Assembly (NCBI GenBank): GCA_000381625.1
Contig: KB906767.1
Span: 4,827,357 to 4,891,356 of the forward strand
DNA length: 64,000 bases
DNA from: Bryobacterales bacterium KBS 96
Lineage (GTDB): Bacteria; Acidobacteriota; Terriglobia; Bryobacterales; Bryobacteraceae
Reading direction: 5' to 3'
The notes under the pieces were generated by a model. It saw only the letters and a list, made by a program, of their open reading frames with translations, was not told the DNA's origin and searched no databases. Within the stretch, counting starts at the first letter, position 1, and each line of letters begins with the position of its first letter. Position numbers and translations under genes: made by a program. Positions 47,296 to 64,000 of the stretch are shown piece by piece.

Positions 47296-48227
47296 TTCGG
47301 TTCTCTCCGCAGAATGCTTGCTAGCAGGCCCAGAGTTCCGCAGGCGGCAAACAGCAGAGGAGCGAAAATCGGCGGCCCATACATGACGTTGTAGATCCAT
47401 TTCTTCAAGCCGCCCGGCCGCCGGACGATTCCTCGGGCGTGATAGTAGAATCCGATGCTGCCGTTCGCAATCGTGACGATCGACACGGCCGGTAAGATTT
47501 TCTTTGCAACCGTGCGGCTCGGGATTGACGCAGCAGCCGTCGCCATCAATACTGGCGTGAGCAGCACCGGCGTCCATTGAACCTTGTATTTGAAATTGTT
47601 CTTGTAGTGCGAGTAACAAGCTTCAAAACCGGAGAAGAACGACCAGAACACGGTGACGGCCGCGACGTGTTTTTGAAACCGCCCTTCACGCAATTCCTGC
47701 TTCCAGTTAGTTCCTATGGCGCCTTGACGGGCGGCGATATTGTCACTCTCCGGCGCATCCCCCCTGCGCATGTACGATCCCAGCAAGCCGAGGTATGCGC
47801 TGGTCCCAAAGAGAAGCGGCGCGAAAATCGGCGGCCCCATCACGATATTGACGATGGGTATCCGCCAACCGCCTGGCTTCCGTTGAATCCCTCTGATGTG
47901 GAAGCAGAAACCGGTGACCGAATCGAGCAGAGTGATCGCTGAAGTGATCCGCAGAGCTTTGCGGCCGGCCTTTCCGCCAAAGGACGCCCAGATGCCAACG
48001 CCTGTGAGAACGCCGCTCAACAGAACGGGCGAGTACATGATCGGGTTGCCATAGCCCGCGCGATAGTGCTCGTAACCAACTTCGAGACCGCTCAGAATAC
48101 TGGAAAGCCCGGCCATGAGAGCTAAGCCTCGCTCAAACCGCCCTTCGCGAATATCGTCGTAAATCGCTTGGAACTCTCCCTCCACAGTGGCGGCTGCCGA
48201 GCGATTCTGTTCGGCGAAGGATTGCAT
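47292..48227 (-). CDS. Membrane protein with an internal tandem duplication, GMC operon
   Basis: 311 residues from ATG 48227 (a TTG at 48248 would add seven). The two halves repeat each other: REGRFERGLALMAGLSSILSG / REGRFQKHVAAVTVFWSFFSG, VGYEHYRAGY / ACYSHYKNNF, and MGPPIFAPLLFGTSAYLGLL / YGPPIFAPLLFAACGTLGLL. Each half has about four membrane helices with conserved His and Tyr (YEHY, FHIRG). It overlaps the subunit 3 gene and may anchor the dehydrogenase and carry electrons, which is inference. I recognise no named family. Confidence 0.8.
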   Translation of the reverse strand: MQSFAEQNRSAAATVEGEFQAIYDDIREGRFERGLALMAGLSSILSGLEVGYEHYRAGYGNPIMYSPVLLSGVLTGVGIWASFGGKAGRKALRITSAITLLDSVTGFCFHIRGIQRKPGGWRIPIVNIVMGPPIFAPLLFGTSAYLGLLGSYMRRGDAPESDNIAARQGAIGTNWKQELREGRFQKHVAAVTVFWSFFSGFEACYSHYKNNFKYKVQWTPVLLTPVLMATAAASIPSRTVAKKILPAVSIVTIANGSIGFYYHARGIVRRPGGLKKWIYNVMYGPPIFAPLLFAACGTLGLLASILRREPK

Positions 48228-48455
48228 TCCCGCTCCATTACGTGGCAAAAGCCACGGTGATTTCCGGTCGGCCGGTCCTCTGCGATGCCGCTTAATGGCC
48301 GTCTGAGTGGCCGCCTATCCCGCGAATAGATTCTGCATTCACCCGATGCCCGGAAGCACCGCGTCCAAATTGTAGATGAGCCAGCCACGGGATTGTTGCA
48401 GGCATCCGGAGCAACGGCCGGGGCAATTGACCCATCCGCGCGATCTAATAGGTGT

Positions 48456-49820
48456 ATGGCTATCGCTTCCATTAATCCGGCATCCGGGAAGTTGCTCGCG
48501 GAATTTGCGCCGCTTTCCTCCAGCGAGCTGAATTTGAAGCTGGATCGCGCTGTGGAAGCGTTCCACCACGTCCGAAAATTGCCATTTCGCACGCGAGCGG
48601 AGCGGATGACGAAAGCGGCGGATGTCCTCGAGAGCGGAAAGCGCAAGTTCGCGGAAATTATGACTGCCGAGATGGGCAAAACACTGACCTCAGCTGTCGC
48701 CGAAGTCGAAAAATGTGCATCGGCGTGCCGCTATTATGCGGCCAATGCAGAGAGGCAACTCGCGGACGAAACGATTGAGACGAATGCGTCGCGAAGTTTT
48801 GTTCATTACCAGCCCCTCGGACCCGTGCTGGCGATTATGCCGTGGAACTTTCCCTTTTGGCAGGTGTTCCGCTTTGCCTCTCCAGCCTTGATGGCAGGGA
48901 ATGTTGGGCTGCTGAAGCACGCATCGAACGTGCCGCAATGCGCGCTCGCGATAGAACGGATCTTCATGCAGGCGGGGTTTCCGGAAGGGGGTATTCAGAC
49001 GCTTTTGATTGACACGAAGCAAGTGGAACAGGTCCTCGACGATGCGCGCGTGATGGCCGCTACGTTAACCGGAAGCGAGCGTGCCGGGCAGTCCGTGGCC
49101 GCGCGTGCCGGAAGAAACATCAAGAAAACCGTTCTCGAACTTGGAGGAAGCGACCCCTTCATCGTGATGCCGACAGCGAATTTCGAAGACGCCGTTTCGA
49201 CCGCCGTGAAGGCCCGGACGATCAACAACGGCCAGTCCTGCATCGCCGCCAAGCGATTCATTATCGCGGATGAAATTTACGACGCTTTTGAAGCGAACTT
49301 CGTTGAGCGGATGCGCTCGTTGAGAGTCGGCGATCCCATGGACCCGGTAACTGAAATTGGTCCGCTGGCTACGGATCGCGTCCGCGACGATCTCGATTTA
49401 CAGGTGAAATCGGCGCTGGAATCCGGCGCGCGCGTCTTAACGGGCGGCAGGAAAATCGAAGGCGCCGGCAATTTCTACGAGCCCACGGTGCTCGTCAATG
49501 TACACAGTAATTCGACTGTCTTCCGGCAGGAGTTGTTCGGTCCTGTCGCGATGCTGTTTCGCGCCCGTGACATGGAAGAGGCCATTGAAATTGCGAACGA
49601 TTCAAATTTCGGACTTGCTTCGAGCTTCTGGTCGAATGATGCCGACGAAATTGCAAGGGCAATTGATGAACTACAAGCAGGACAGGTATTCGTCAACAGC
49701 ATGGTGGCTTCGGATCCGCGCTTGCCGTTCGGCGGCATTAAGCGGTCCGGCTATGGGCGAGAATTGGGATCCTTTGGCATAAAGGAGTTTGTGAACGTCA
49801 AAACGGTCTCGCTAATGTGA
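48456..49820 (+). CDS. NAD(P)-dependent aldehyde (succinate-semialdehyde) dehydrogenase
   Basis: 454 residues. MPWNFPFWQVFRFASPALMAGN, LTGSERAGQSVAARAG, ELGGSDPFIV (catalytic Glu), NNGQSCIAAKRF (catalytic Cys) and FGPVAMLFRARD are the aldehyde dehydrogenase motifs; the short length and FVNSMVASDPRLPFGGIKRSGYGRELG end match the succinate-semialdehyde dehydrogenase group. The ATG at 48456 after taggtg was chosen; the frame is open 21 codons further up. Confidence 0.9.
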   Translation: MAIASINPASGKLLAEFAPLSSSELNLKLDRAVEAFHHVRKLPFRTRAERMTKAADVLESGKRKFAEIMTAEMGKTLTSAVAEVEKCASACRYYAANAERQLADETIETNASRSFVHYQPLGPVLAIMPWNFPFWQVFRFASPALMAGNVGLLKHASNVPQCALAIERIFMQAGFPEGGIQTLLIDTKQVEQVLDDARVMAATLTGSERAGQSVAARAGRNIKKTVLELGGSDPFIVMPTANFEDAVSTAVKARTINNGQSCIAAKRFIIADEIYDAFEANFVERMRSLRVGDPMDPVTEIGPLATDRVRDDLDLQVKSALESGARVLTGGRKIEGAGNFYEPTVLVNVHSNSTVFRQELFGPVAMLFRARDMEEAIEIANDSNFGLASSFWSNDADEIARAIDELQAGQVFVNSMVASDPRLPFGGIKRSGYGRELGSFGIKEFVNVKTVSLM

Positions 49821-51238
49821 AGTGCCCCTCATAACGAAGTTTGTGAAATTAAATTAACGAGCTGGTGGATTGGGCCGCAACCAGGCGGTACTTTGTATCC
49901 TACCATACTCATCTGACTCGGGCGTTCGCTATCCAAGCCGCGGTTCGCTAACTAATTGGTTAACGCCATTAACCAAATGGTTAGTCGCGGACAGTGTCAA
50001 CTCTAAAGCTTCATTAGTGCAAAAAGGAATCGCTCTATTACGCCGTGCATGGGATGTGTGCGCAGGCGCCGCTTCCGCCAGAACTTCCGATGGACGGTGC
50101 ACGCGATTTGCATTTGAAATGCAGTAAGCACTCCCTGGGACAGATGGCGGAGCGTCTGTAACCGCAACCGGCATCTGAAAATCGAACTGGCGAAAGTGCG
50201 GTAAGCCGTCGTTCAGTGCGAGACCAACGATGACAAGTGGACTCGAGATGAAACACTTTGCGGCAATTTGCGTCTCACAGAAACGAATACTCATTGGCTC
50301 AGATTGGGCCCCTCGGAAGCTGCGTACAAGTACTATCAGTACATGTAAGTTGTTGAGATTGCGAGGAAAACCGTTGACAGGCTCGCTGTCTATCAGGCAT
50401 TCTGGTAATGCTGGGTCAGAGAACTGTTCCTTTGCTCAGATGGGAAATTCCCGGCGGCAGCCTACCTTCTTGCGGTGACGAGGACTTGGCCTGTGTGCTC
50501 GCCAGTTCGTTACTGTTGCTCCACCGTTCTTCCGCGTTCGAAGTCTGCCAAGCGCGTTGCTGCGCGGCGTGAAACTTTCTATGCCGGAAAACGTGTCCCG
50601 ATCGCCAGGATTTTTGCGGGAAAAACAATGACGGAACTGTACAGGTTGGCGCGAGATTCGGGTGACGTCACAGCGTCTCAATGTAGGGAATGGAATCGGC
50701 TCCGATCTGTTCTGATGATATTGCGTGGCACTTGTTCGCAACTTACCAACGGTTCGTCGCGCTCGAATTGCATACTAAAAAGTGGGTATGTATCCAGTTA
50801 TTTCTCAATTACTCGGGAAATTACGAGATTCACCACCAAGTGCTGCTATCCGCCTTATCGGCAATTTACTGTTCTGACGGAAACTTTTCGAGGAAAATTC
50901 GACTGTTGGATTCGCTGGTCCAAATTGCAATCATATCGAAACGCAACTCGTTCAAAATTAGGAGAGGAGAACATTTACGTAGTGGCGTGTCGGCTCCCAG
51001 TGCATGGCGCCCAGATGCGCGAGACGCGCGTACACGAGAAAAGGCGTGACGCCGTCCGCATTAGTGAGCGCATTGCAGGGAAGTTGGCTGGCTGGTTCGA
51101 AGAGTTGTCGATTGCGCTCTGCTATCGAACCGGCGCGGTGGCATCCCAAATTCTCTCGCGGGTTTGCCGCGGTGAAATGACGACGCCCAAGCTGGCGTCC
51201 TTTGGCCGGTAACCTCGATGAGATATCGAAGAGGAATT
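49821..51238. other. 1.4-kb region without a convincing gene, ahead of the polysaccharide cluster
   Basis: This DNA is visibly richer in A/T than its neighbours. The longest plus-strand frame (50475-51212, 245 codons) reads as Cys/Arg/Ser-rich sequence without domain, ribosome site or family pattern, and frames on the other strand are no better. It holds an inverted repeat at 49956-49976. It could be a long leader or regulatory region of the polysaccharide genes, or a decayed gene. Confidence 0.5.
49956..49976. promoter_or_regulatory. Perfect 8-bp inverted repeat, possible operator
   Basis: ttggttaa-cgcca-ttaaccaa, extended outward by partly matching ctaa/ttag ends. It lies 136 bp after the aldehyde dehydrogenase stop in an A/T-rich gap. 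The form fits a dimeric repressor site; the regulator is unknown. Confidence 0.35.
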
Positions 51239-52243
51239 ATGCTGAGGAGTTTTGTTTTACTTTTGTCGACATTTCTGGTTTCAGTAGGCTTCGCTTTTTC
51301 GAGCGATTCACCGAACCAGCCAGTCGCCGCTACCGCCATTCCGGCGACAACCCTGCCCGAGCCGGCGTCATCCCAAAGCGGATCCGTGGTGCTTGGTCCT
51401 CACGACCAAATCACGCTCGCCGCGCCCGAGATCCAGGAACTCGACAAGCGGCAGCTTAACATCAGTTCCGATGGAACGGTCAGTGTTCCTCTAGTGGGTC
51501 GCATCAAAGCGGCCGGATTGACCACCGAGCAATTCGAAGCGCGAGTAACTCAGGATTTAAAGAAGCTTTATCTGGACCCGCAAGTTTCTGTAAGTTCGGT
51601 GGAATACAGTAGCAAAGCCGTATCGGTGTTAGGTTCCGTCAATAAGCCGGGCGTCGAACAGGCAGACGGGCAAAAGTCTCTGCTCGAGATGCTGTCGCTT
51701 GCCGGCGGCCTCCGTACCGATGCGGGTCCGGTAATCAATTTGACCAGACCCGCCGATAGCCCGACGCCATTGCCGGCTGCCGTAAATCCGACGCCTTCTG
51801 GGAAATACGTCACGGGCCAGGTATCCGTGGCGAGCCTGCTTGAGGCGCGCGACCCGGCGGCCAACGTCAAGATCGAGCCCGGCGATGTCATCACGGTGCC
51901 GAAGGGCAAGATGATTTACGTTGTCGGCGATGTAAAGAGAGCGGGTGGATTTGTCATTGGTGAAAACGACAGTCTTACTGTGCTGAAAGCTATTTCACTC
52001 GCCGAAGGGCTGAACGGAACCGCGGATTCGGCTCATGCTCGCATCCTGCGAAGCACGGGGGCGGGTCAGCACGCGGAAGAGCCGTTCGACGTAAGAAAGC
52101 TGCTGGCCGGCAAGACACAGGACGTGCCGTTGCGGGCGGACGACATTCTTTTCATTCCCAGCAGTACGACCAAGAAGGTCGCGTCACGCGTGATTGAGGC
52201 CGCTATTGCGACGGGCACCGGAATCGCCATCTGGCATTTCTAA
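51239..52243 (+). CDS. Wza-type polysaccharide export protein (SLBB domains)
   Basis: 334 residues from ATG 51239 behind gaagagga; an ATG seven codons upstream is possible. Signal peptide MLRSFVLLLSTFLVSVGFAFS, Poly_export domain (VVLGPHDQITLAAPEIQELDKR ... VSVPLVGRIKAAGLTTEQFE), then two SLBB domains (SKAVSVLGSVNKPGV ... and GKMIYVVGDVKRAGGF). It forms the periplasmic/outer-membrane channel for exopolysaccharide. First gene of a plus-strand series running to the window end. Confidence 0.9.
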   Translation: MLRSFVLLLSTFLVSVGFAFSSDSPNQPVAATAIPATTLPEPASSQSGSVVLGPHDQITLAAPEIQELDKRQLNISSDGTVSVPLVGRIKAAGLTTEQFEARVTQDLKKLYLDPQVSVSSVEYSSKAVSVLGSVNKPGVEQADGQKSLLEMLSLAGGLRTDAGPVINLTRPADSPTPLPAAVNPTPSGKYVTGQVSVASLLEARDPAANVKIEPGDVITVPKGKMIYVVGDVKRAGGFVIGENDSLTVLKAISLAEGLNGTADSAHARILRSTGAGQHAEEPFDVRKLLAGKTQDVPLRADDILFIPSSTTKKVASRVIEAAIATGTGIAIWHF

Positions 52244-52270
52244 TCGGTCCGGCCAGAAAGCAGAAGATTG

Positions 52271-54565
52271 ATGACCAATTTCGAGATCGAGAGCAGACGT
52301 AATTCGCGCGGAATACCCGAAAGGAGAGTTCAGGAGGGGTATCTTGCCGAGTCCAATCAGGGCTGGAATCACGTTCCGCAGGACCAGGCGGCCGAAGAGG
52401 TTGAGTTGGTTCGCTTACTGCGCATTGTTTGGGCGCGCAAAGTTATTATTCTCGCGGCAGGCTTGGTGTGCGCCGCGATTGGCCTTTTTATCGCGCTGAA
52501 GCAGACTCCTATTTATCGAAGTTCCGCAACGGTCGAATTACTGGGCATCAATGAGAATTTTATGAACATGCGCGACGTGGATCCCAACACGAAAGTGGCG
52601 GGCTCAACCAGTGACGCTCACGTACAGACCGAAGTCCAGTTACTGCGGAGTCATGCGCTCATTGGCCGCGTTGTGCAGAAACTCGGCATGGTTCAGCCCG
52701 CGCCGGCCGATCACGGACCAGGTTTTTTGTCGCGTCTGAATCCCTTTTCCTCGCCGCGTCCCCGGAAAATCGATCCGGTCACCGCGGCCGTCGATGGGGC
52801 GCTATCGAATCTCAGAATCGAACAGATCGGCGACTCGAATATGCTGCGGCTCACTTACGACGACACGGATCCCGAGCGGGCGGCCGAATTTGTCAATACG
52901 CTCGCGCAGCAGGCCATTCAGGTGAACGTCGATGAGCGCGGCAATCTGAACCAGCGCGTCGGCGGATGGCTCTCCAAACAGGTCGAATTGCTGCGGAACC
53001 ACATGGAGCAGGCGGAAAGTGAATTGCAAGCTTACAGCAGAAAGACCGGCCTGCTGTACACCGGCGATGACAAAACGAACGTGGCCGACACCCGCCTGCA
53101 GCAGATCGAGACGGAACTCGCCGCGGCTCAGGGGGCGCGTATCCAGAGCGAATCTCAGTACACGCTCGCAAAAGGAGCCGATCCGGACACGCTGCCGCAG
53201 GTCCTCGACAACGGATCGTTGAAGAGCTACCAGGCGAAACTGGCCGACCTGGAGAGGCAAAAGGCGGAACTCGAAGCAACCTTGACGCCGCAGAACCCGA
53301 AGGTAAAGCAGGTGGTGGCGCAGATCAATCAGCTTCAAACTACGATCGCGCGCGAGCGAAAGGACGTACTGACGCGCATCGGCAACGAGTACAACACGGC
53401 GAAGAAACGCGAAGCGCTGCTGACCGCCGCCTATCAGGCGCAGACCGGCGTTGTGTCGGATCAGGCTCAAAAGGCGATTCATTACAATACGTTGAAACAT
53501 GAGGTGGATACCACGCGCGAGCTCTACGAAGCGATGCTGCGCCGCGTCAACGACGCGGAAGTGGTTTCAGCCATTCGGGCGAGCGACTTGAGAGTTGTCG
53601 ATGCGGCCAACCCAGCCTCCGCGCCGCACAGTCCGGATAAACCGCTGCTTACCGGCATCGGCCTCGTCAGCGGATTATTGATCGGACTTATGTTTGTCTT
53701 TGTGCAGGAGCAGAAGGACCGAACTATTCAACAGCCGGGCCACTCCGCTCTGCTTCTCGATATCACCGAGCTCGGCGTCATTCCCTCCGCCAAATCGTCA
53801 GGCGCGAAGTTGCTTTCCGGTCCGCCGAAGCCGGAACAGGCGCCGGCCGGACCCAAGTCGCTGTTGACGATGAACCGGAAAACGATGGGACTTGAATCCG
53901 CGGTCGCCGCCAGCGGGCATTCACTTTTTACCGATTCTTTTCGCGGGGTGGTGAACTCCATTCTGTTCAGCGGCGGCGAGCATGCCGCAATGCGGACGCT
54001 CCTGGTAAGCAGCCCGAACGAAGGAGAAGGAAAGACCACTTCGGTCTGCAATCTTGGGGCGGCGTTCGCCGAAATCGGCCGGCGTGTTCTGTTGATCGAC
54101 GCGGATTTTCGGAAGCCGCGCATGCATGAGATCTTTTCCGTGCCGAACGACCGCGGCCTTCTGAATCTGCTTTCCGGAGACGAAGGTTCTTTAGATCCTC
54201 TCGATTTGGTGCGCGAAACCGGAACCGAGCGGCTCTCGATTCTTCCGGCGGGCACGACGTCCCGCCCGCTCTCCACGCTGATCCACTCTGAGCGTCTCGG
54301 CACCCTGCTGAACCGGCTGCGGAGTCAGTACGATCTGATTCTCATCGATTCCGCGCCGTTGCTTCTGGTTCCGGAATCCCGAGTGCTCGCGCGTTCGGCC
54401 GACGCTCTCGTGCTCGTGCTGCGCGCCGGTGTGACGACAGTGGATGTCGCCATGGCAGCCCGGCGCAGAGCCGTCGAAGATCGCGTTCCACTGATCGGCA
54501 CCATCCTGAACGATTGGAAGCCGGAAATAACGGGCTACGGCTATTACCCGAAAAAGCGAGCATAG
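52271..54565 (+). CDS. Wzc-type polysaccharide co-polymerase with tyrosine autokinase
   Basis: 764 residues. The Wzz chain-length domain begins VELVRLLRIVWARKVIILAAGLVCAAIG (first membrane helix), a coiled periplasmic part follows (about 220-400, QVELLRNHMEQAESELQAYSRKTG), and a second helix (TGIGLVSGLLIGLMFVF). The BY-kinase domain has Walker A SSPNEGEGKTTSVCNL, Walker A' LLIDADFRKPR and Walker B LILIDSAPLLL. The C-terminus has only three Tyr (GYGYYPKK), fewer than in E. coli Wzc. It works with the Wza-type protein just upstream. Confidence 0.93.
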   Translation: MTNFEIESRRNSRGIPERRVQEGYLAESNQGWNHVPQDQAAEEVELVRLLRIVWARKVIILAAGLVCAAIGLFIALKQTPIYRSSATVELLGINENFMNMRDVDPNTKVAGSTSDAHVQTEVQLLRSHALIGRVVQKLGMVQPAPADHGPGFLSRLNPFSSPRPRKIDPVTAAVDGALSNLRIEQIGDSNMLRLTYDDTDPERAAEFVNTLAQQAIQVNVDERGNLNQRVGGWLSKQVELLRNHMEQAESELQAYSRKTGLLYTGDDKTNVADTRLQQIETELAAAQGARIQSESQYTLAKGADPDTLPQVLDNGSLKSYQAKLADLERQKAELEATLTPQNPKVKQVVAQINQLQTTIARERKDVLTRIGNEYNTAKKREALLTAAYQAQTGVVSDQAQKAIHYNTLKHEVDTTRELYEAMLRRVNDAEVVSAIRASDLRVVDAANPASAPHSPDKPLLTGIGLVSGLLIGLMFVFVQEQKDRTIQQPGHSALLLDITELGVIPSAKSSGAKLLSGPPKPEQAPAGPKSLLTMNRKTMGLESAVAASGHSLFTDSFRGVVNSILFSGGEHAAMRTLLVSSPNEGEGKTTSVCNLGAAFAEIGRRVLLIDADFRKPRMHEIFSVPNDRGLLNLLSGDEGSLDPLDLVRETGTERLSILPAGTTSRPLSTLIHSERLGTLLNRLRSQYDLILIDSAPLLLVPESRVLARSADALVLVLRAGVTTVDVAMAARRRAVEDRVPLIGTILNDWKPEITGYGYYPKKRA

Positions 54566-55831
54566 ATGGCCTCCGCGACCCTAGCGAGAGAAGCTTACGC
54601 CGCATCGCTGGTGCATAGCCGCGTGCGAACACCCTCGCGTCTGTTCCTGAGAGCAACAGGATTAACGATGGCGGTGAGCTGTTTCGTCATGGTCGAGCCC
54701 GCGCCGGTCGATATTCTTGTCCTCGGATTGCTGCTGCTCGGCATTGTTTCGGGCATACTCACGCTGAAAGGCTTGCCCCCGCTGCCCAGCACGCTCATGG
54801 CGGTGTTGATCCTCGCCAATATCGTCTCGTTTTACAACCCGATCGATTTGGAAAGGGCCTTTTGGTACATCTTCGTCACAGCCTATCTGGTGCTGTCGTG
54901 GTTCTTCTTTGTCGCATTCCTGCAGCGATACGAGACCCGAGGGATGGAGGTGCTGGTTCGCGCGTACACCTTTTCGGCGGTAGTGTGCGTTACGCTCGGA
55001 ACTCTTTCTTACTTCCACTTCATCGGTTTCCAGGATCGCCTCCTTCTGGTCGGGAGGCTAAAAGGGCTGTTCAAAGATCCCAACGTTTGTGGCCCCTATC
55101 TGATTCCGGTTGCGTTATTCGCGCTGGCCGGCGTCATCCGTAAAAAGCCGGGTTTGTCAACCGCGATCTTCCATCTCGCCGTGCTGGCCATTGCGAGCCT
55201 TGGCGTGCTGCTTAGCTATTCGCGAGCTTGTTGGATCAATTATTCAATTTCAGTTGTCGCGTATTTTGCGTTCAGCTATTTGCTCCGGCCCGTCGGTACA
55301 AAGCCGCCATTCTCGATGACGCGGGCGCTGCTGTTCGCCGTGCTGGCGGTTGTCTCCATCCTTGGAATTCTGAAGCTCCCGGCGGTTCAAGCCATGATGG
55401 CGGAACGGGTAACGTCAACGGGGCTGCAAGGTTATGATCGGGACCGTTTCCATACTCAGCGAATGGCTTTTCAGTCGGCGCTCGTGCGCCCCCTGGGCAT
55501 TGGACCCGGTCAGGCGGAGCAGCAATTCGATTATGCGACGCACAGCAGCTACATGCGCGTGCTCAGTGAAAACGGCTTTGTAGGGTTTGTTGCTTACACC
55601 GGCTTCGTGCTCCTGTCGCTGGGGAGATCGCTGGTAATGACACAACGAACTAAGAGTGTTTTTTGGAGGAGGATTTATTTGATTGCGGCCGCATGCATTA
55701 TCGGCCACATGGTGAACAGTGGAGTGGTGGACACCGTCCACTGGCGCCACTACTGGTTCTTACTCGCTCTCCCTTGGTATACGCCATTGGAATCAAGAAT
55801 GCGGGGCCATAACCATGTTGGAATTGCATAA
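54566..55831 (+). CDS. O-antigen ligase/polymerase-family membrane protein
   Basis: 421 residues with ten or more membrane helices and the Wzy_C/O-antigen ligase pattern: FKDPNVCGPYLIPVALFALAG, SYSRACWINYSISVVAY (long periplasmic Arg loop region) and PLGIGPGQAEQQFDYATHSSYMRVLSENGFVGF with the conserved His. It should polymerise or ligate the lipid-linked glycan in the periplasm. It begins immediately after the kinase stop. Confidence 0.88.
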   Translation: MASATLAREAYAASLVHSRVRTPSRLFLRATGLTMAVSCFVMVEPAPVDILVLGLLLLGIVSGILTLKGLPPLPSTLMAVLILANIVSFYNPIDLERAFWYIFVTAYLVLSWFFFVAFLQRYETRGMEVLVRAYTFSAVVCVTLGTLSYFHFIGFQDRLLLVGRLKGLFKDPNVCGPYLIPVALFALAGVIRKKPGLSTAIFHLAVLAIASLGVLLSYSRACWINYSISVVAYFAFSYLLRPVGTKPPFSMTRALLFAVLAVVSILGILKLPAVQAMMAERVTSTGLQGYDRDRFHTQRMAFQSALVRPLGIGPGQAEQQFDYATHSSYMRVLSENGFVGFVAYTGFVLLSLGRSLVMTQRTKSVFWRRIYLIAAACIIGHMVNSGVVDTVHWRHYWFLLALPWYTPLESRMRGHNHVGIA

Positions 55832-55977
55832 CGCCGGCAGGTTTCGAGTTTCGAGATACCGGACACAAGCAACGGCTGTGGTGGACGATCTTGATCTTTG
55901 ATGTAAACGCACGAAGCCTCGTCGAGCTTCTGTTTAGGGCTCAATACCCCCGGAGACGTTTATCTTGAGAGGAAAAA

Positions 55978-57420
55978 ATGACAGGCGCTATCGCACAACC
56001 AGCACTAGTCGCACGACCGATTGCAACCAAGCCGTACTATATGCTCGGCACCCTTATTCTTACGGATGCAATCGCTCTTGTCGCTTCCGTCGCGCTCAGT
56101 GTTGGATTCAAACTTCTATTTCAGCCCGAAGTCCATTTGGCCGGTTATCTCCGGCTCTGGCCGTTTTTATTCGTTTTTCTCGCGTTTTATAGCGCCGTGG
56201 GCCTTTATTCCGGCGCCGCATTGACCCCGCCGGAGGAATTAAGGCGAGCCACGTTTTCATCGTTCTTTCTTTTCCCGGTGATCGAGGTTCTCACCGCTTC
56301 GTGGCGCGGCCCCTCTCACTATCTGACTTGGACGATGATTCTGGCCATGCTGTTCAGCGTAGTCATGGTGCCGCTGCTGCGAGCACAAGCCCGGACGTGT
56401 TTCGCAAAAAAGGACTGGTGGGGCTATCCGACGGTCATTTTCGGAGCGGGCGACACCGCCAAGCTTGTCGCCGAAACGCTAATGAACGAAGCCGGTTTCG
56501 GACTGAAGCCCATTGCCGTTTTCGACCAGACGTGGACCGACGCGCCGCCGATTCCAGGCGTTCCTGTCATGCGGGATTTCGCGCTGGCGGCGGAAGTCGC
56601 TTCAAACCTGCGTGCTCCCTATGCCGTGATTGCGATGCATGGCGAGACGCCGGAAAGCGTTATTGCCACCATTGAAAATTACATTTCGCCGTATTTCGCG
56701 CGAATCCTGATTATTCCGGACCTGTTCCGCTGGTCTAGTCTTTGGGTTAAACCGAAGAGCTTCGGCGACATACTTGGCCTGGAAGTTGTCCAGCAGGCGG
56801 CGCTGCCCGATCGTCAGCTTCCGAAGCGCATCCTCGATGTAGTCGTCAGCTCACTGGCGTTGTTGTTCCTGGCTCCAGTGCTGGTCGCCATCGCCATTGC
56901 GATCAAGCTGGAATCGCGGGGACCGGCAATCTTCGGTCATGTCCGCATCGGCCGCAACGGCATGCCGTTCAAGGCCTGGAAATTTCGAACCATGGTCACC
57001 AACTCGGAGGAGATCCTGGACGAATACCTGGCCAATAATCCCCGCGCTATGGCGGAGTGGGAAAGCGATTACAAGCTGCGCGATGATCCGCGCGTGACAC
57101 TTGTCGGACGGGTGCTCCGCCGGACCAGTCTCGACGAACTGCCTCAACTCTGGAACGTGCTCATGAGTGAGATGAGCCTCGTTGGTCCTCGTCCGATTGT
57201 CGAAGCGGAAATTCCGAAATACGGAGCCACTTACTCGCTTTATACTCGCGTGAAGGGCGGCGTCACCGGCCTTTGGCAGGTTTCGGGCCGCAACGACATC
57301 TCCTACGAAACGCGCGTGAAGCTCGACAGTTTCTATGTGCGTAACTGGTCGGTCTGGCTGGACTTGTGCATCCTTTATAAGACCATTGGCACGGTTCTGT
57401 TCAGAAACGGTGCTTATTAG
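55978..57420 (+). CDS. wbaP: WbaP-type undecaprenyl-phosphate hexose-1-phosphate transferase
   Basis: 480 residues: four to five N-terminal membrane helices, a Rossmann-like middle (PTVIFGAGDTAKLVAETLMNEAGFGL), and the polyprenol phosphotransferase domain from KRILDVVVSSLALLFLAPVLV, with FGHVRIGRNGMPFKAWKFRTM, TSLDELPQLWNVLMSEMSLVGPRP and VKGGVTGLWQVSGRN. It loads the first sugar phosphate on undecaprenyl phosphate. WcaJ-like glucose enzymes share this layout, so the sugar is uncertain. The 146-bp gap before it has a strong gagaggaaa ribosome site. Confidence 0.92.
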   Translation: MTGAIAQPALVARPIATKPYYMLGTLILTDAIALVASVALSVGFKLLFQPEVHLAGYLRLWPFLFVFLAFYSAVGLYSGAALTPPEELRRATFSSFFLFPVIEVLTASWRGPSHYLTWTMILAMLFSVVMVPLLRAQARTCFAKKDWWGYPTVIFGAGDTAKLVAETLMNEAGFGLKPIAVFDQTWTDAPPIPGVPVMRDFALAAEVASNLRAPYAVIAMHGETPESVIATIENYISPYFARILIIPDLFRWSSLWVKPKSFGDILGLEVVQQAALPDRQLPKRILDVVVSSLALLFLAPVLVAIAIAIKLESRGPAIFGHVRIGRNGMPFKAWKFRTMVTNSEEILDEYLANNPRAMAEWESDYKLRDDPRVTLVGRVLRRTSLDELPQLWNVLMSEMSLVGPRPIVEAEIPKYGATYSLYTRVKGGVTGLWQVSGRNDISYETRVKLDSFYVRNWSVWLDLCILYKTIGTVLFRNGAY

Positions 57421-57547
57421 AAGCGAAGTTACTCGAACTCTGGTTGCGTCGTTTTGCCCGCATGGAGATTTTTCGAAAACACCGGCGCCAGCCGGAACGA
57501 AGAAGCATGAGTCGGGTATTTAGAACGGTTTCGCCGGATTGATCGTT

Positions 57548-58669
57548 ATGAACATACTTTATGTGATCACTCGGGCTGAGATGGGCGGATCGCAGATGCA
57601 CTTGCTGGATCTGCTCCACGGCTTCCGCGACAGGCACGATCTGTCGCTTGCCACCGGCGAGCACGGCTTCCTCACAGAAGAAGCGGCCCGGCTCGGTGTG
57701 CGCGTGCATGTGTTGCCCGACCTGGTGCAGCCGCTCCGTCCTCATCGCGACGCCAAAGCCTTAATGTCCACTTATGGGCTGATCCGGCGGACGCGGCCGG
57801 ATCTGATCCATTGCCATACATCGAAAGCGGGTATTGTCGGCCGCACAGCCGCCAGAATGGCTCGTGTCCCCGCGATCTTCACCGCCCATACGTGGAGCTT
57901 CGCGGAGGGAACCTCGCCCTTATGGAAGCTAGTGGGCACTCCGTGCGAACGCCTTGCGGCGCGCTGGTCGGAGAGCATCATTGCCGTCTCGGAATCAAAC
58001 CGTTCTCTCGCTTTGCGCCGCCGCGTTGCTCCGGGCGGCAAAATCGTGACCGTGCATAACGGCGTGCTCGATACTGTGCATCGTGCGCGCCCCGGCGCTA
58101 GCATTGTGCCGCGCATTGTCATGGTTGCGCGATTCGCCGCGCAAAAGAACCAGGCCCAACTGATCCAGGCCGTTGCCGGCGTTCAACAGCCGTTCCATCT
58201 CACCTTCGTGGGTGACGGCCCAACCCGGCCGGCGGCAGAGGAACTGACCAGGTCGCTCGGGCTACAGGATCGAGTGGAATTCGCTGGAGTGCGCACCGAC
58301 ACGGATCGCATCTTGAGCGAATCGAGCATCTTCGTTTTGGCTACGAACTGGGAAGGATTCCCAATCACGATTCTCGAAGCGATGCGCGCCGGTTTGCCCG
58401 TGGTTGCGACCGACGTCGATGGCGTCCGCGAAGCTCTCGTGGATGGCGAAACGGGTTGTCTTTATCCAAAAGGCGCTATGGCGCCGCTACGTTCTATTTT
58501 GCAGGCCCTGCTTATCGATCCGGCTACTCGCATCCGGCTCGGTCAGGCGGGGCGCAAGCGTTACGAGGCCGAATTCACGCGATCCGCCATGCTCAGGAAG
58601 ATACTGGCAGTTTACGAACACGTTGTTCCAGGAATGCGCGAATCGCAATCGGCCTTACTGTCCGCGTAA
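57548..58669 (+). CDS. Glycosyltransferase family 4
   Basis: 373 residues of the GT-B fold. MNILYVITRAEMGGSQMHLLDLL starts the acceptor domain; the donor domain has VMVARFAAQKNQAQLIQAV, FVGDGPTRPAAEEL, and NWEGFPITILEAMRAGLPVVATDVDGVREAL, with the E-x7-E motif. It adds a sugar from a nucleotide donor to the lipid-linked glycan. The ATG at 57548 is preferred to a TTG three codons up. The 57421-57547 gap shows no other feature. Confidence 0.92.
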   Translation: MNILYVITRAEMGGSQMHLLDLLHGFRDRHDLSLATGEHGFLTEEAARLGVRVHVLPDLVQPLRPHRDAKALMSTYGLIRRTRPDLIHCHTSKAGIVGRTAARMARVPAIFTAHTWSFAEGTSPLWKLVGTPCERLAARWSESIIAVSESNRSLALRRRVAPGGKIVTVHNGVLDTVHRARPGASIVPRIVMVARFAAQKNQAQLIQAVAGVQQPFHLTFVGDGPTRPAAEELTRSLGLQDRVEFAGVRTDTDRILSESSIFVLATNWEGFPITILEAMRAGLPVVATDVDGVREALVDGETGCLYPKGAMAPLRSILQALLIDPATRIRLGQAGRKRYEAEFTRSAMLRKILAVYEHVVPGMRESQSALLSA

Positions 58670-58705
58670 ATCGCGCGACGGTGCTTTTGTCGGAGGAAAT
58701 ACGTC

Positions 58706-60541
58706 ATGTTGGACGATAGTGTTGGTGGCGCGGAGTCCTTCGTGTCCACCGCGGCCAGCGTCTGGCGGCACGCCGTGGAGCGGCCGGGCGCCGTTGCAAT
58801 CCGATGGGATGGCGGCCAGGTCACGTTTGCGGAACTGGTCTCTCGCGCATCTGCTTTGGCCGCTTCGTTCGCGAAATTGGCCGGCGGCAATACGGCGCCA
58901 ATTGCCCTTGCAACCAATAATTCCGTGCAGATGATCACGGCTGCGCTTGCCGCATGGAAGATGGGACGCGCGTATCTGCCGGTTGACCCATTAGGCCCTC
59001 CCGAGCGGCTGCGCCACATGCTTGCCGAAGCGCGCGTCTCGCTTGTCGCGGTCAACGGCAGCCCGGAAGGCCGCCTCCCGTTGGGGCCTTGGAGGTTTGC
59101 GGATATTGACGCGTGCGCCATCTCGTGCTCCGGCGCTCCAACGTTTGCAGCCGGAGCATCCGTACCGGTCAATGCCGCCGGCGATTTGGCTTACATCGTC
59201 TATACCTCCGGCTCCACCGGCCAGCCGAAGGGCGTCGCTGTCACTCATGGCAATCTGACGAACCTGATCCGCTGGTATGGTGAGGCTTTTGAAGTTACTG
59301 AAGCCGATCGGGGCACTCAGTTCTCCGCGCTGACCTTCGATGCCGCCGTTCTTGAAACCTGGCCCGTCCTGGCGGCCGGCGCGAGCCTGTATATCCTACC
59401 TCCCTCCATCGCATTGGTCTCTGAACAGTTGCGCGATGCTCTTGTATCCCATGGCGTCACGTTGTGTTTTGCAGCCACGCCGGTTGCCGAACAGTTGCTT
59501 GCGCTCGAGTGGCCCGATAACACGAAATTACGCTACCTATTAACCGGCGCCGATGTTTTGCACACTTTTCCGCCGGCAACGCTTCCGTTCCGCCTCGTCA
59601 ACAACTACGGTCCGACGGAGTGTACGGTGCTTGTGACCTCGGGGATAGTTCCCACGCACAGTCCGTATCGTGTTCCCACGCTCGGAAGGCCGATATCGGG
59701 AGCAGACGTCTATGTGCTCGATGCAAATCTTTCGCCGATGCCGGATGGCGAGAGTGGCGAGATCTGCATCGCTGGCGAACCGGTAGCCGCGGGTTATAGC
59801 GGACGTCCGGATCTGACCGCCGATCGTTTTGTCGATAATCCATTTGGAGCGCCCGGATCGACGTTATACCGCACCGGTGATGTGGGTCGAAAATTGCCGG
59901 GCGGGGAATTGGAATTTTTAGGACGCCTCGACGAGCAGATTAAAATTCGCGGCTATCGTATCGAGCCTGGCGAGATCGTTGCCGCTCTGCGAAGCCATGC
60001 AGCCGTGAGCGCGGCGGCCGTCGCCGCAATCGAATCCGGCGTGAACAAAAGTCTTGCCGCGTATGTGGTCTTGCGATCACAGGTGAGCGGAGCGGAACTC
60101 CGGAGCCACTTAGTCTCCCGGCTGCCCTCTTACATGGTCCCGCAATATCTTGTGCGCCTGGACAGTATGCCGGTGACCGGGCATGGAAAAATCGACAAGC
60201 TCAGGTTGCCCGCGCCGGGGAATTCGGATCTGCTCGAACCAGTTGAACATTTGGCTGAGCCGGAATCGGAAATACAGACCGAGGTGGCGTCCATCCTCTC
60301 CGTTCTTCTGGAAGGCCGCCCGGTCGGTCTTCACGATAACTTCTTCCGGCTCGGCGGCCACTCCCTGCTTGCGGCGCAAGTGATCGCCCGCGTGCGAAAT
60401 GCATTCGGCGTCGAACTGCCGCTTCGCACGGTCTTTGAATCACCGACCGTTGCCGAGCTTTCCGATCAGATCGAGAAGCGCATCCTCGAGATAGTAGCGT
60501 CGCGGCCCGCTGAGGGACCAGCGGACAGCGCCGCACAGTAA
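58706..60541 (+). CDS. NRPS adenylation-peptidyl carrier (A-PCP) protein
   Basis: 611 residues. Adenylation motifs in order: YIVYTSGSTGQPKGVAVTH (A3), FDAAVLETW (A4), NNYGPTECTV (A5), CIAGEPVAAGYSGRPDLTADRF (A6), YRTGDVGRK (A7), KIRGYRIEPGEI (A8) and GHGKIDK with the A10 Lys. The carrier domain follows with DNFFRLGGHSLLAAQ, whose Ser takes phosphopantetheine. No condensation or thioesterase domain is attached. The amino acid cannot be named safely. A cggaggaa ribosome site precedes the ATG. A P450 gene follows by 22 bp. Confidence 0.93.
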   Translation: MLDDSVGGAESFVSTAASVWRHAVERPGAVAIRWDGGQVTFAELVSRASALAASFAKLAGGNTAPIALATNNSVQMITAALAAWKMGRAYLPVDPLGPPERLRHMLAEARVSLVAVNGSPEGRLPLGPWRFADIDACAISCSGAPTFAAGASVPVNAAGDLAYIVYTSGSTGQPKGVAVTHGNLTNLIRWYGEAFEVTEADRGTQFSALTFDAAVLETWPVLAAGASLYILPPSIALVSEQLRDALVSHGVTLCFAATPVAEQLLALEWPDNTKLRYLLTGADVLHTFPPATLPFRLVNNYGPTECTVLVTSGIVPTHSPYRVPTLGRPISGADVYVLDANLSPMPDGESGEICIAGEPVAAGYSGRPDLTADRFVDNPFGAPGSTLYRTGDVGRKLPGGELEFLGRLDEQIKIRGYRIEPGEIVAALRSHAAVSAAAVAAIESGVNKSLAAYVVLRSQVSGAELRSHLVSRLPSYMVPQYLVRLDSMPVTGHGKIDKLRLPAPGNSDLLEPVEHLAEPESEIQTEVASILSVLLEGRPVGLHDNFFRLGGHSLLAAQVIARVRNAFGVELPLRTVFESPTVAELSDQIEKRILEIVASRPAEGPADSAAQ

Positions 60542-60563
60542 TGCCCATGCTCGGAGCGATACG

Positions 60564-61841
60564 ATGCTGAATTCAACTCTGCCGGCGCAAGGCGATCTCG
60601 AAGCCAGCCTCAGTCTCTACCAGCTTTTAGATCCCGAAGTGCTTGCGAATCCCTATCCGCTGTTTCACCGGATTCGCTCGGCGGATCCCGTCCATTGGGA
60701 CGTGTTTTTGCATTCCTGGGTGGTGACGCGATATGACGACGTAATCCGCGTGCTCCGGACGTTTTCGGCCGATCGGACGCCCACGCCTGAACAGCTTAGC
60801 TCCATGGGACTGGAACAGTTAAGCCCCATCGCGGCGCTCATGGTGAAGCAGATGCTTTTCATGGACGCGCCCATGCACACGCGCATCCGAAGCCTCGCCT
60901 CATTCGCCTTCACTCCAAGCCGCGTTACCGTTCTGCGCGATCGAATCGTGAGGGTTGCCGATCAGCTGCTCGCCCGCGTGCTCGATGCCGGCGAGATGGA
61001 TGTCATTGCTCAGTTCGCCAGTCCGCTGCCGGCCATCATCACTGCCTCCATGCTGGGCGTTCCCGAGGAAGATCACGAGCAGCTGAAAGCCTGGTCCGCC
61101 AGTTTCGCCGAAATGCTCGGGAATTTTCAGCACAATCCCGATCGCATTCCCGGCATTCTGAAGACGGTCGAGGACATGACGGCCTACTTTCGAGATCGCA
61201 TTCGCGAACAGAAGCGCAGCCCCCGGGAAGGATTGGTGCATTCGCTTTTAACGGCCGAGGTCAATGGGGATAAGTTGACCGAGGAAGAGGTCGTTGCAAA
61301 CTGCATTATCACCATGGTCGGAGGCCAGGAGACGACCACCAATCTGATTGGGAACGGCGTGCTGATGCTGCTTCGGCATCCTCGTGAACTGGAGCGGCTT
61401 CGTTCCGATCGCGCGCTTTTACCGTCGGCCGTCGAGGAACTTCTTCGCTACGATTCTCCCAGCCAGCATACGGCTCGAATCGCGCCGTCCAATCAGATGA
61501 TAGGAGATAAGGAAATTCGCGCGGGCCAGGCGGTAATCGCCGTGATGGCCGCCGCCAACCGCGATCCCGATCGATTTCCCGATCCGGATCGTCTCGATCT
61601 CGGACGTACGGACAATCGTCATCTTGCTTTTGGCTGGGCCAGCCATTTTTGTTTCGGCGCGCCTCTCGCGAGACTGGAAGGCCAGATCGCGTTCGAGCGG
61701 CTCGTCCAACTTCCCAATTTGCATCTTCAGCCCACCCCGCTCTCCTGGCGCAGCAATCTGGGGCTGCGAGGGCTTACTGCGCTTCCGGTCGCATTCGGTC
61801 GCCTGGCATCGCTTCCGCGGTTTGAAAGCTACAAGAACTGA
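60564..61841 (+). CDS. Cytochrome P450
   Basis: 425 residues, bacterial class I. The I-helix oxygen motif is MVGGQETTTNL, the K-helix ExxR is EELLRYDSP, and the haem loop reads FGWASHFCFGAPLAR with the Cys ligand (about residue 362). Placed directly between an A-PCP protein and a condensation protein, it is likely to hydroxylate an amino acid tethered to the carrier, as NovI does with NovH; this is inference from context. No ferredoxin gene is adjacent. Confidence 0.93.
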   Translation: MLNSTLPAQGDLEASLSLYQLLDPEVLANPYPLFHRIRSADPVHWDVFLHSWVVTRYDDVIRVLRTFSADRTPTPEQLSSMGLEQLSPIAALMVKQMLFMDAPMHTRIRSLASFAFTPSRVTVLRDRIVRVADQLLARVLDAGEMDVIAQFASPLPAIITASMLGVPEEDHEQLKAWSASFAEMLGNFQHNPDRIPGILKTVEDMTAYFRDRIREQKRSPREGLVHSLLTAEVNGDKLTEEEVVANCIITMVGGQETTTNLIGNGVLMLLRHPRELERLRSDRALLPSAVEELLRYDSPSQHTARIAPSNQMIGDKEIRAGQAVIAVMAAANRDPDRFPDPDRLDLGRTDNRHLAFGWASHFCFGAPLARLEGQIAFERLVQLPNLHLQPTPLSWRSNLGLRGLTALPVAFGRLASLPRFESYKN

Positions 61842-61849
61842 TATTGCCC

Positions 61850-63370
61850 ATGGACGACGGCGAATCACGCGCTCGCGCGCTTTCCCGCTATTTAGAACAG
61901 GCGAGGGCGAGGCGCGGACAAGCGGAATACGCGATACCGGTGCGCGAACGCGATGTTGAGGTTGAGGCGACCGGCGGGCAGCAGCAATTATGGCTGCATT
62001 CGGAACTCGCGTCCGGCAGCCCGATTTACAACGAGCCGGTCACCATTCATTTTCATGGTGCATTGAATGCGGCGGCGCTCGAGCGGGCTTTTAACGAGAT
62101 CCTGCGAAGGCACGAAGCATGGCGGACCGGGTTTCGTTTTACGGAGGGTAAACTCGTTCAGGTCGTAGCGCCGAAGCTGTCGATTCCCTTGCCGGTGACC
62201 GATCTTCGCCCTCTGCCGGAACGCCATCGCGAATCGCGCGCTGTCCAACTGGCGACGGAAGACGCCAAATTGCCATTTGACCTGGCGCGGCCGCCCCTTA
62301 TTCGCGTCCAGCTTATTCGGCTGGCGGAACGCGAGTACCGCCTGTTTCTCACGCTGCATCACATCATTTTCGACGCCTACTCTCTGTATCGGATCTTTTT
62401 GCCTGAGTTGCAGGCGTGTTATGCCGGGTTCTTAAACGGAACCGATCCCGGTCTTCCGGCACTGAGTGTGCAATATCCCGATTACGCCTTGTGGCGAAAA
62501 CGCGTGTACTCGACCAGAGCCAGCGAGCCGCATTTATGCTATTGGGAGGCACAGCTCTCCGGCCACCTTCCCGTCCTCAATTTGCCGTTCGATCGTCCAC
62601 GGCCCGTTGACAGAACGTATAAGGGCGGCATGCAGACGTTCTCCACCCCTCGAAACGTCGTAGAGCGCCTGAAAGAAATCGGGGCGGAGCGCGGCGCAAC
62701 TCTGTATATGACGGTTCTCGCTGCGTTCAACGTCCTGCTTTATAGCGAGACCGCCCAGTGCGATGCGATCGTCGGCAGCGTCAGTTCAAGCCGTAAGCAT
62801 CCGGAGACAGAGAAGATGCTCGGTTATTTCTTAAACAGCATCGTCCTGCGCATTCAAATTTCGCCGGAGGAGCGTTTCTCGGACCTGATCTTACGCGTGC
62901 GCGAGGTTGTCATTGGGGCGCTCAGTCACGATGATTTGCCTTTCGAATTGCTTGTCTCCCGATTCGAGAAGCATCGCCAACCCGGCGTGCATCCTCTCTT
63001 CCAGGTCATGTTTTCGCTTGGACCGCCGCTCCCGCGCTTCTCTCCGGAATGGGGATTTACGAAGACGGATGTTGACACCGGTGCGGCGAAAATGGATCTA
63101 TGGCTGGATCTGGACGAGTGTGACAGTGGTTTCATCGGACGGTTTATTTACTCGCAAGAACTCTTCGATTCGTTAACTATTACACGATTCAGCGCACGCT
63201 GGGTAATACTGCTTGATATGATTTCAAAGTATCCGAGTAAAAGTATTGAGGAGTTGGCGCGTGGGCTGAGGGAAAGCCATTTTCAGGCTTCTGCGGCGCC
63301 CCGCCGTGCCAGCGGGCGATTGATGGGATTTCTGCCGAAGTGGGCCCGACAGATCTGGCCTCGAAGATAA
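61850..63370 (+). CDS. Free-standing NRPS condensation-domain protein
   Basis: 506 residues from ATG 61850 (a TTG two codons up is possible). C-domain motifs: GGQQQLWLHSEL (C1), RRHEAWRTGF (C2), LTLHHIIFDAYSLY (C3, HHxxxDA instead of HHxxxDG), YPDYALWR, GYFLNSIVLRIQ and HDDLPFELLV with HPLFQVMFSL. The second catalytic His and Asp are intact. It should join carrier-bound substrates. The C-terminal RRASGRLMGFLPKWARQIWPRR is a basic amphipathic tail that could touch the membrane. Confidence 0.9.
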   Translation: MDDGESRARALSRYLEQARARRGQAEYAIPVRERDVEVEATGGQQQLWLHSELASGSPIYNEPVTIHFHGALNAAALERAFNEILRRHEAWRTGFRFTEGKLVQVVAPKLSIPLPVTDLRPLPERHRESRAVQLATEDAKLPFDLARPPLIRVQLIRLAEREYRLFLTLHHIIFDAYSLYRIFLPELQACYAGFLNGTDPGLPALSVQYPDYALWRKRVYSTRASEPHLCYWEAQLSGHLPVLNLPFDRPRPVDRTYKGGMQTFSTPRNVVERLKEIGAERGATLYMTVLAAFNVLLYSETAQCDAIVGSVSSSRKHPETEKMLGYFLNSIVLRIQISPEERFSDLILRVREVVIGALSHDDLPFELLVSRFEKHRQPGVHPLFQVMFSLGPPLPRFSPEWGFTKTDVDTGAAKMDLWLDLDECDSGFIGRFIYSQELFDSLTITRFSARWVILLDMISKYPSKSIEELARGLRESHFQASAAPRRASGRLMGFLPKWARQIWPRR

Positions 63371-63443
63371 GACGGCTGTTCACGGCAGCGTTTCTCAACT
63401 AGGCTGGAATCGCGCTGGAATTTCGGAAGAAAGGCGAGCAAGA

Positions 63444-64000
63444 ATGGCGTCTGGCTCTGAATGTGTTTCGGAAGATGGCGAGTTTGCCTGGTGCAGACGC
63501 GTTGACAAGCTGTTCCGTATGTGGGCAGCCTGCCAGCCCGAGGCCGTCGCCCTGCAGGCGGAAGAGAACTGCTGGTCCTATTCGAAACTGGATCGCTCCT
63601 CGAATTATCTTGCGAATCAGATCCGGAAGCATTCAGTCGAGCCAGGCTCGTTCGTGGCGGTGTGTGCTCGGCGGTCGCCGGAAGCGATTGCCGCGTTCCT
63701 GGGGGTTCTGAAGGCGGGAGCCGCCTACCTACCGCTGGATCTGAATTATCCCGCGGAAAGGCTGCGTTACATGCTTGCCGATGCGGGCGTGCGCTGCATT
63801 CTCGCGGACAGAGCCGGAATCCTCGCCCTAACAGGCATATCCAGTTCAGAATGCCGGGTTCTGGAATTGCCGGATTTAGAAGGCGAGAGCGAAGCCGGTC
63901 CCGCAGTTCCCACTGATGAACGCGATCTCGCGTATTTAATGTACACGTCGGGATCGACCGGCGCCCCCAAAGGCGCCATGATCGAGCATCGCGGCATCGT
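63444..64000 (+). CDS. NRPS adenylation domain, N-terminal part (cut by window end)
   Basis: The frame from ATG 63444 is open to the last base, giving 185 residues: FRMWAACQPEAVALQAEENCWSY (start of A domain), LGVLKAGAAYLPLDLNYPAERLRYMLADAG (A2) and LAYLMYTSGSTGAPKGAMIEHRG (A3). It lies 73 bp after the condensation gene on the same strand. The carrier and later modules, if any, are beyond the window, so the full product cannot be read. Confidence 0.9.
   Translation, partial: MASGSECVSEDGEFAWCRRVDKLFRMWAACQPEAVALQAEENCWSYSKLDRSSNYLANQIRKHSVEPGSFVAVCARRSPEAIAAFLGVLKAGAAYLPLDLNYPAERLRYMLADAGVRCILADRAGILALTGISSSECRVLELPDLEGESEAGPAVPTDERDLAYLMYTSGSTGAPKGAMIEHRGI

Follow-up and report, generated by a model that had tools for sequence, protein, structure and literature searches.

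Background

NovH and NovI form a unit in which an adenylation-peptidyl carrier protein (A-PCP) and a cytochrome P450 together oxidise a carrier-bound amino acid. Adenylation and carrier proteins are also employed in the D-alanylation of teichoic acids, as DltA and DltC. In polyoxypeptin A biosynthesis, according to one report (PMC3943440), PlyR is proposed, by likeness to NikQ, to hydroxylate PCP-bound leucine to 3-hydroxyleucine; under the same proposal, a discrete thioesterase (TE) frees this building block, which is then reactivated. Here we describe a locus of Bryobacterales bacterium KBS 96 (Acidobacteriota), lying in a stretch of 64,000 nucleotides of contig KB906767.1 (G000:C1:4827357-4891356, where G000 is this 6.69 Mb genome), hereafter termed the window. 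We read it as a carrier-bound oxidation unit of the non-ribosomal peptide synthetase (NRPS) kind inside a Wzy-type polysaccharide operon; both kinds of system are known.

The locus resembles the NikQ and PlyR units in having an A-PCP beside a P450, and the residue of polyoxypeptin A is likewise leucine, as proposed in the same source (PMC3943440). It differs from the NikQ, NovI and PlyR units in that the pair is directly followed by a stand-alone condensation (C) domain and an A-PCP-TE protein, in that this set recurs in polysaccharide loci, and in that the P450 is nearest to P450BioI and PksS among solved structures. With Wzx/Wzy-dependent exopolysaccharide operons it shares Wza, Wzc, Wzy-like, WbaP and glycosyltransferase genes, whereas it has no flippase, one glycosyltransferase only and a complete NRPS attached. 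If the peptide is indeed destined for the polysaccharide, the likeness to Dlt would be that adenylation and carrier domains serve to add amino acids to a polymer of the cell surface, but the oxidising P450, the C domain and the second module set the locus apart, and transfer of the DltB type is not supported, since Pfam matches no MBOAT acyltransferase in any of the nine genes of the locus. Several of the proteins match the XrtA-type polysaccharide and ligase models of the XrtA/PEP-CTERM exopolysaccharide loci that contain an AMP-ligase; membership of that group is not supported, as these matches fall below the curated cut-offs and the adenylation domains instead pass the NRPS model TIGR01733.

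Among the papers listed by literature searches, with subscription journals mostly outside their coverage, none was seen to describe NRPS/P450 cassettes within polysaccharide loci. Term searches in PMC9723581 and PMC7298704 gave no occurrence of exopolysaccharide, saccharide, P450, leucine or glycosyltransferase, and in PMC6497799 none of exopolysaccharide, hydroxyleucine or leucine and four of P450. An initial annotation, made from the letters of the window, had known of no described system with this exact order; none was seen among the papers listed, but the arrangement as such recurs in other genomes. We propose that the locus is a single polysaccharide operon that includes a complete two-module NRPS of the dissociated kind, which would make a dedicated hydroxyleucine-type dipeptide for the polysaccharide, a reading that we regard as almost evenly balanced between right and wrong.

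Structure of the locus

Nine + strand genes, between 51218 and 66212, encode Wza, Wzc, Wzy-like, WbaP, GT4, A1-T1 (adenylation and peptidyl carrier), P450, C and A2-T2-TE proteins. The polysaccharide half opens with a Wza-like export protein (51218-52243; Poly_export and SLBB domains, PF02563 and PF22461; 82% identity in G159, another genome of the genus), for which 51218 is the start in the list of open reading frames (ORFs) and the second ATG, at 51239, is equally plausible. There follow a Wzc-like chain-length protein and BY-kinase (52268-54565; Wzz, GNVR and AAA_31 by Pfam; TIGR01007 above and TIGR01005 below the cut-off; 89% identity in G159), a Wzy or O-antigen ligase-like polymerase (54566-55831; PF04932), a WbaP-like initiating phosphoglycosyl transferase (55978-57420; TIGR03022 above cut-off at 499 bits, PF02397) and a GT4 glycosyltransferase (57539-58669; PF13439, PF00534). 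Wza, Wzc, Wzy and initiating transferase, the core of a Wzx/Wzy operon, are all present by Pfam and TIGR models. Across a 36-nt gap (58670-58705, + strand), which can be aligned with G159, lie A1-T1 (58706-60541; PF00501, PF13193, PF00550), with the pocket code DALFLGNVL, a variant of DAWFLGNVV; the P450 (60564-61841; PF00067; motif FGWASHFCFG); the stand-alone C domain (61844-63370; PF00668, 307 bits; HHIIFDA); and the 922-aa A2-T2-TE (63444 to the window end at 64000 and on to 66212 in G000:C1), with the pocket code DAFFIGGTF.

This agrees with the initial annotation, which had listed five polysaccharide genes and then A-PCP, P450, C and A on one strand with small gaps; all nine are + strand genes with named domains. 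The last gene, given there as an incomplete adenylation domain, is not a lone adenylation domain: extension beyond 64000, as the annotation had suggested, completes the frame (63444-66212) as A-PCP-TE, and the NRPS is therefore complete, with two modules. Both carriers have the motif LGGHSL, both adenylation domains score above the TIGR01733 cut-off, the C domain motif HHIIFD fits HHxxxD, and the TE (PF00975, 104 bits) has GFSAGG, which fits GxSxG.

Computed with the ORF-list starts, the intergenic gaps are 24 nt (Wza-Wzc), 0 (Wzc-Wzy), 146 (Wzy-WbaP) and 118 (WbaP-GT4) in the polysaccharide half, and 36 (GT4-A1T1), 22 (A1T1-P450), 2 (P450-C) and 73 nt (C-A2T2TE) in the NRPS half. A terminator with a separate promoter at 58670-58706 had been named beforehand as a sign of two units; a scan for promoter-like and terminator-like signals, which gave 2 and 18 matches where shuffled sequence averaged 4.6 and 16.1, had no + strand match of either kind in this gap. 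The nine genes may be transcribed together.

In the proposed mechanism, A1-T1 would activate a leucine-type amino acid and keep it as a thioester; the P450 would oxidise this carrier-bound residue, hydroxylation most likely being at the side chain; the lone C domain would couple it to a valine-type residue on A2-T2; and the TE would free the product or hand it to an acceptor. As judged from sequence, the P450 probably oxidises a leucine-like amino acid. The solved structures closest to it by sequence are P450BioI (3ejb) and PksS, and no P450sky entry was recognised among the structure matches listed, many of which bear only general names. P450BioI cleaves carrier-bound acyl chains, a likeness that would favour a variant, applicable to this or any other reading of the locus, in which the enzyme desaturates or cleaves the residue and the product has a dehydro- or shortened residue. 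We consider this unlikely, as PMC3943440 gives PlyR and NikQ, P450s that pair with amino acids bound to a PCP, the role of hydroxylases.

The first long ORF beyond A2-T2-TE (66446-68122) lies on the opposite strand. The 1.4 kb 5' of Wza (49821-51217) contain no recognisable gene, the ORFs there not having been searched, and the last 420 bases can be aligned with G159. Further upstream (44789-49820) are minus-strand ORFs that appear by eye to be a GMC-type oxidoreductase with its partner, and an aldehyde dehydrogenase (48393-49820, PF00171), all apparently unrelated to the locus. An Rfam scan of the window gave 0 matches.

Conservation within the genus

G159, the sole genome of the same genus compared, has the identical nine-gene order with open frames and 70-93% identity; related cassettes lie in polysaccharide loci of other lineages. 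The ratio of non-synonymous to synonymous divergence (dN/dS) between window and G159 lies between 0.05 and 0.11 in the polysaccharide genes; the P450 has a value of 0.06, and A1-T1, C and A2-T2-TE have 0.18-0.19. On these ratios, all nine genes are under purifying selection. Synonymous divergence is similar along the whole locus (dS 0.72-1.06), which fits joint inheritance of the nine genes since the split of G000 and G159. Together, the open frames, shared order, low dN/dS and similar dS argue that the locus is the result of neither chance nor decay, and the two measures of divergence rule out an NRPS that is decayed or recently inserted. Relatives of the Wzc at E<=1e-170 include just one match outside the genus (45%, in G128) among 237 genomes.

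The cassette in other lineages

The layout is not restricted to this window, as G159 and relatives in named genomes demonstrate. The P450 has matches at E<=1e-90 in 18 of 237 family genomes, and at E<=1e-100 in 13 of the 396 phylum genomes sampled, the window genome included. The best 80 of 250 relatives in named genomes are mostly from Acidobacteriota, with others in Rokubacteria, Chloroflexota, Verrucomicrobiota, Planctomycetota, Actinomycetota and Pseudomonadota. These 80 and the phylum loci, all chosen by P450 similarity, made up 88 distinct loci once five repeats had been dropped from 93 (loci are labelled L and genomes G, with a number); as many of the contigs are short, the fractions hold for this sample alone, and counts use frame-by-frame matches because gene calling by longest ORF picked the antisense frame at some loci of high GC content. 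A-PCP and P450 are adjacent and co-conserved: in 81 of the 88 the A-PCP immediately precedes the P450, and a C domain lies just downstream in 64; a phosphopantetheinyl transferase match is found in 27 and a GNAT-type match in 10. The window genome itself has two ACPS-superfamily matches as phosphopantetheinyl transferase candidates, possibly of the Sfp type, neither of them near the locus. One locus labelled Akkermansia muciniphila (L171) has the cassette with a P450 very close to that of a Verrucomicrobiota record (L167), and its label may be wrong.

Pocket codes were read from our own alignment, with positions set from the GrsA motifs. Among 84 distinct A1 domains (four of 88 being repeats), the code is DAWFLGNVV in 72, DAWFLGNVL in five and DALFLGNVL in three (the window, G159 and G030), with four other codes once each, despite a median identity of only 51% among A1 proteins. 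The 54 distinct A2 domains (one of 55 being a repeat) have 26 codes, some gapped, containing X or possibly misaligned, and a median identity of 39%. We take DAWFLGNVV to be a leucine code and DAFFIGGTF, that of the window A2, to be valine-like; the A2 patterns presumably include glycine, serine, threonine and valine types. Since the A1 code is near-invariant and the A2 codes diverse, the simplest reading is that the first residue is constant and has its own P450 while the second is freely chosen, and the codes suggest that the cassette combines one unchanging oxidised-leucine starter with second modules of differing specificity.

Nor does the cassette appear to be spill-over from genomes rich in NRPSs. 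The C domain of the locus is the only one in the window genome, and 10 of the 30 genomes with a cassette have no C domain besides that of the cassette, counts which rule out that the locus is a by-product of an NRPS-rich genome. The motif of 58 C domains has HH in 39, HQ in 10 and neither form in nine.

Association with polysaccharide genes

Polysaccharide markers were defined as matches of at least 40 bits to the window Wza, Wzc, Wzy and WbaP or to one MurJ-like protein, a definition that misses distant forms and has glycosyltransferases outside its counts. At least one marker is present in 24 of the 88 distinct loci. In a P450 tree of 98 rows, 27 were labelled as having polysaccharide genes, 47 as not, and 24 were not scored; a negative label needed 8 kb upstream, often less downstream, and six labels were set by hand (L072 and L077 positive; L036, L038, L039 and L071 negative). 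The label requires 12 changes on this tree, against a shuffle mean of 22.1, and starred branches force at least three.

The link was also examined through phosphoglycosyltransferase genes (Bac_transf, PF02397), which occur at 148 places in the 30 cassette-bearing genomes. One lies within 15 kb of nine of the 31 cassette P450s, where 0.81 would be expected from density, compared with two of 33 other C domain clusters (one-sided Fisher 0.016); within 5 kb, the figures are six of 31 (0.30 expected) and none of 33 (one-sided Fisher 0.0098). In seven of the nine cases within 15 kb, the gene is on the same strand as the cassette. The control clusters came from the same 30 genomes and were grouped by hand, G196:C298 being excluded on account of an adjoining P450 remnant.

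In Terriglobia, loci such as L098, L115 and L175 have the order Wza, Wzz-like, ATPase, Wzc, acyl-CoA dehydrogenase, AMP-ligase, WbaP, A1-T1, P450-C-A-T-TE and flippase-like gene, in which Wzz was called by eye and the order of the early genes varies, for example in L115; several such loci also hold sulfotransferase, GH10 and Wzy genes. P450, C, A, PCP and TE are fused in L115 into one protein of 1797 aa beside the A-PCP, within a Terriglobia polysaccharide locus (L115:9953-15343), and similar long frames, with domains assigned by match only, were observed in L098, L175 and L181. In 11 loci, 93-190 nt separate the end of a WbaP match from A1-T1; in 11, a flippase-like gene follows the A2 module of the cassette, and in nine the cassette is enclosed by both; three further genes of this fold lie elsewhere in their loci. 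The flippase-like family (L115:15396-16781, about 480 aa, and 13 relatives) gave no Pfam match in the two members scanned. Its model, from 14 sequences (mean predicted local distance difference test score, pLDDT, 85.4), matches transporters of the MOP superfamily, with WzxE best by target-normalised template modelling score (TM-score; 0.82) among the matches listed, and the family is accordingly modelled as having a WzxE/MATE-type fold.

This same fold is that of small-molecule MATE exporters, and the window locus has a single glycosyltransferase; both would suit a glycopeptide, that is, a small peptide glycosylated or exported by the Wza/Wzc/flippase route, with the polysaccharide-type genes serving it and not a polymer. 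We judge this quite improbable, given that the window encodes a Wzc-type co-polymerase and a Wzy-like polymerase, and that the Terriglobia loci have Wzy-like, GH10 and sulfotransferase genes, a set that would suit the making of a long polymer.

A second form of the cassette is found in G025, G026, G066, G078, G148 and G201, where a GT4-A1T1-P450 unit has no C domain match in the stretch covered and a gene of about 370 aa follows the P450 (cut by the contig end in G148). The G025 locus also has Wza, Wzc and Wzy-like genes, as well as one for a membrane protein, MurJ/Wzx-like by eye. A model of the 370-aa protein (pLDDT 89.4) resembles double-GNAT folds, namely N-myristoyltransferase and Eis, with TM-scores of about 0.5-0.6. 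From this resemblance, it seems that in some polysaccharide loci an N-acyltransferase, in place of a C domain, handles the oxidised leucine-type residue. The recurring unit of GT4, A-PCP, P450 and double-GNAT-like genes was seen in L069 (11018-15245), L073, L074, L070 and L118, adjoining polysaccharide genes in L069 and in L118, a Planctomycetota record.

A wider proposal can be put tentatively, and we hold it to be rather doubtful: an oxidised leucine-type starter with a variable second residue would be a widespread, unrecognised exopolysaccharide substituent, added to lipid-linked sugars before or at flipping. The GNAT variant would then add oxidised leucine or its N-acyl form, and swaps of the second module would give lineage-specific decoration.

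One locus or two

The NRPS cassette is a unit of its own that is able to stand alone, since in many genomes that carry it the stretch covered shows no polysaccharide marker; occurrence of the NRPS part away from polysaccharide genes had been raised in the initial annotation as evidence against a single locus, and to this extent is observed. The main competitor is thus a pair of neighbouring units, in which the cassette makes a free secreted dipeptide, linear or cyclised by the TE, and the adjacency reflects a shared role in surface growth or a chance joining in the ancestor of the genus. The presence of a TE domain is in keeping with such a product, as are Chloroflexota cassettes that run into longer multimodular NRPSs (L124, L135) and the lack of a polysaccharide marker in G030, the nearest relative outside the genus. 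The repeated close placement of the cassette in polysaccharide loci elsewhere, including between WbaP and a Wzx-fold gene, argues the other way, as does its enrichment near Bac_transf over other NRPS clusters. We consider the pair of units possible, if somewhat unlikely.

A number of observations weigh against a single peptide-decorating operon. No polysaccharide marker was found in 47 of the 74 scored tree rows. Within the branch to which the window belongs, this genus alone shows the linkage: the locus of G030, nearest by P450, has A-T-TE, P450 and phosphopantetheinyl transferase with no polysaccharide marker. There (L068:13715-18504) the A-PCP-TE is one protein and the P450 is divergent, and the locus possibly makes a free oxidised amino acid. 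Several of the nine genomes with co-located Bac_transf are kin (G000 and G159 in one genus; G320, G445 and G586 in one family; G405 and G450 in one genus), so the independent cases are fewer than nine; similarly, all nine loci with the cassette between WbaP and a Wzx-fold gene fall into one clade of the P450 tree, and this sandwich may therefore be one event. Within the window, Pfam recognises one glycosyltransferase and no peptide-to-sugar transferase at the locus, and no flippase is present among the nine genes at 51218-66212, to which the search was limited. The C domain motif is followed by A, not the usual G, a form (HHxxxDA) shared only with G159 among the 58 C domains, and the A1 code differs from the common one at two of nine positions.

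Set against these, the cassette is repeatedly placed in polysaccharide loci, which renders a functional link between NRPS and polysaccharide about as likely as all its rivals together. The earlier suggestion of one locus for a peptide-decorated polysaccharide is thus partly supported, by the lack of signals in the gap, the order in G159 and the recurrence elsewhere, and weakened by the frequency of the cassette where no polysaccharide markers are found; a covalent link between peptide and polysaccharide is inferred.

Conclusions

If the locus is indeed one polysaccharide operon with its own NRPS, several bacterial lineages would be using non-ribosomal peptide chemistry on their structural polysaccharides, and a predictable role could be given to a gene set that is commonly classed as a small orphan NRPS. 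A clean experimental handle is offered by the near-invariant leucine-type starter and its P450, as this genome has only the one condensation domain. Should that reading fail, the A-PCP/P450 pair, with its fixed code and variable partners, would still be useful as a widespread oxidised-leucine starter module.

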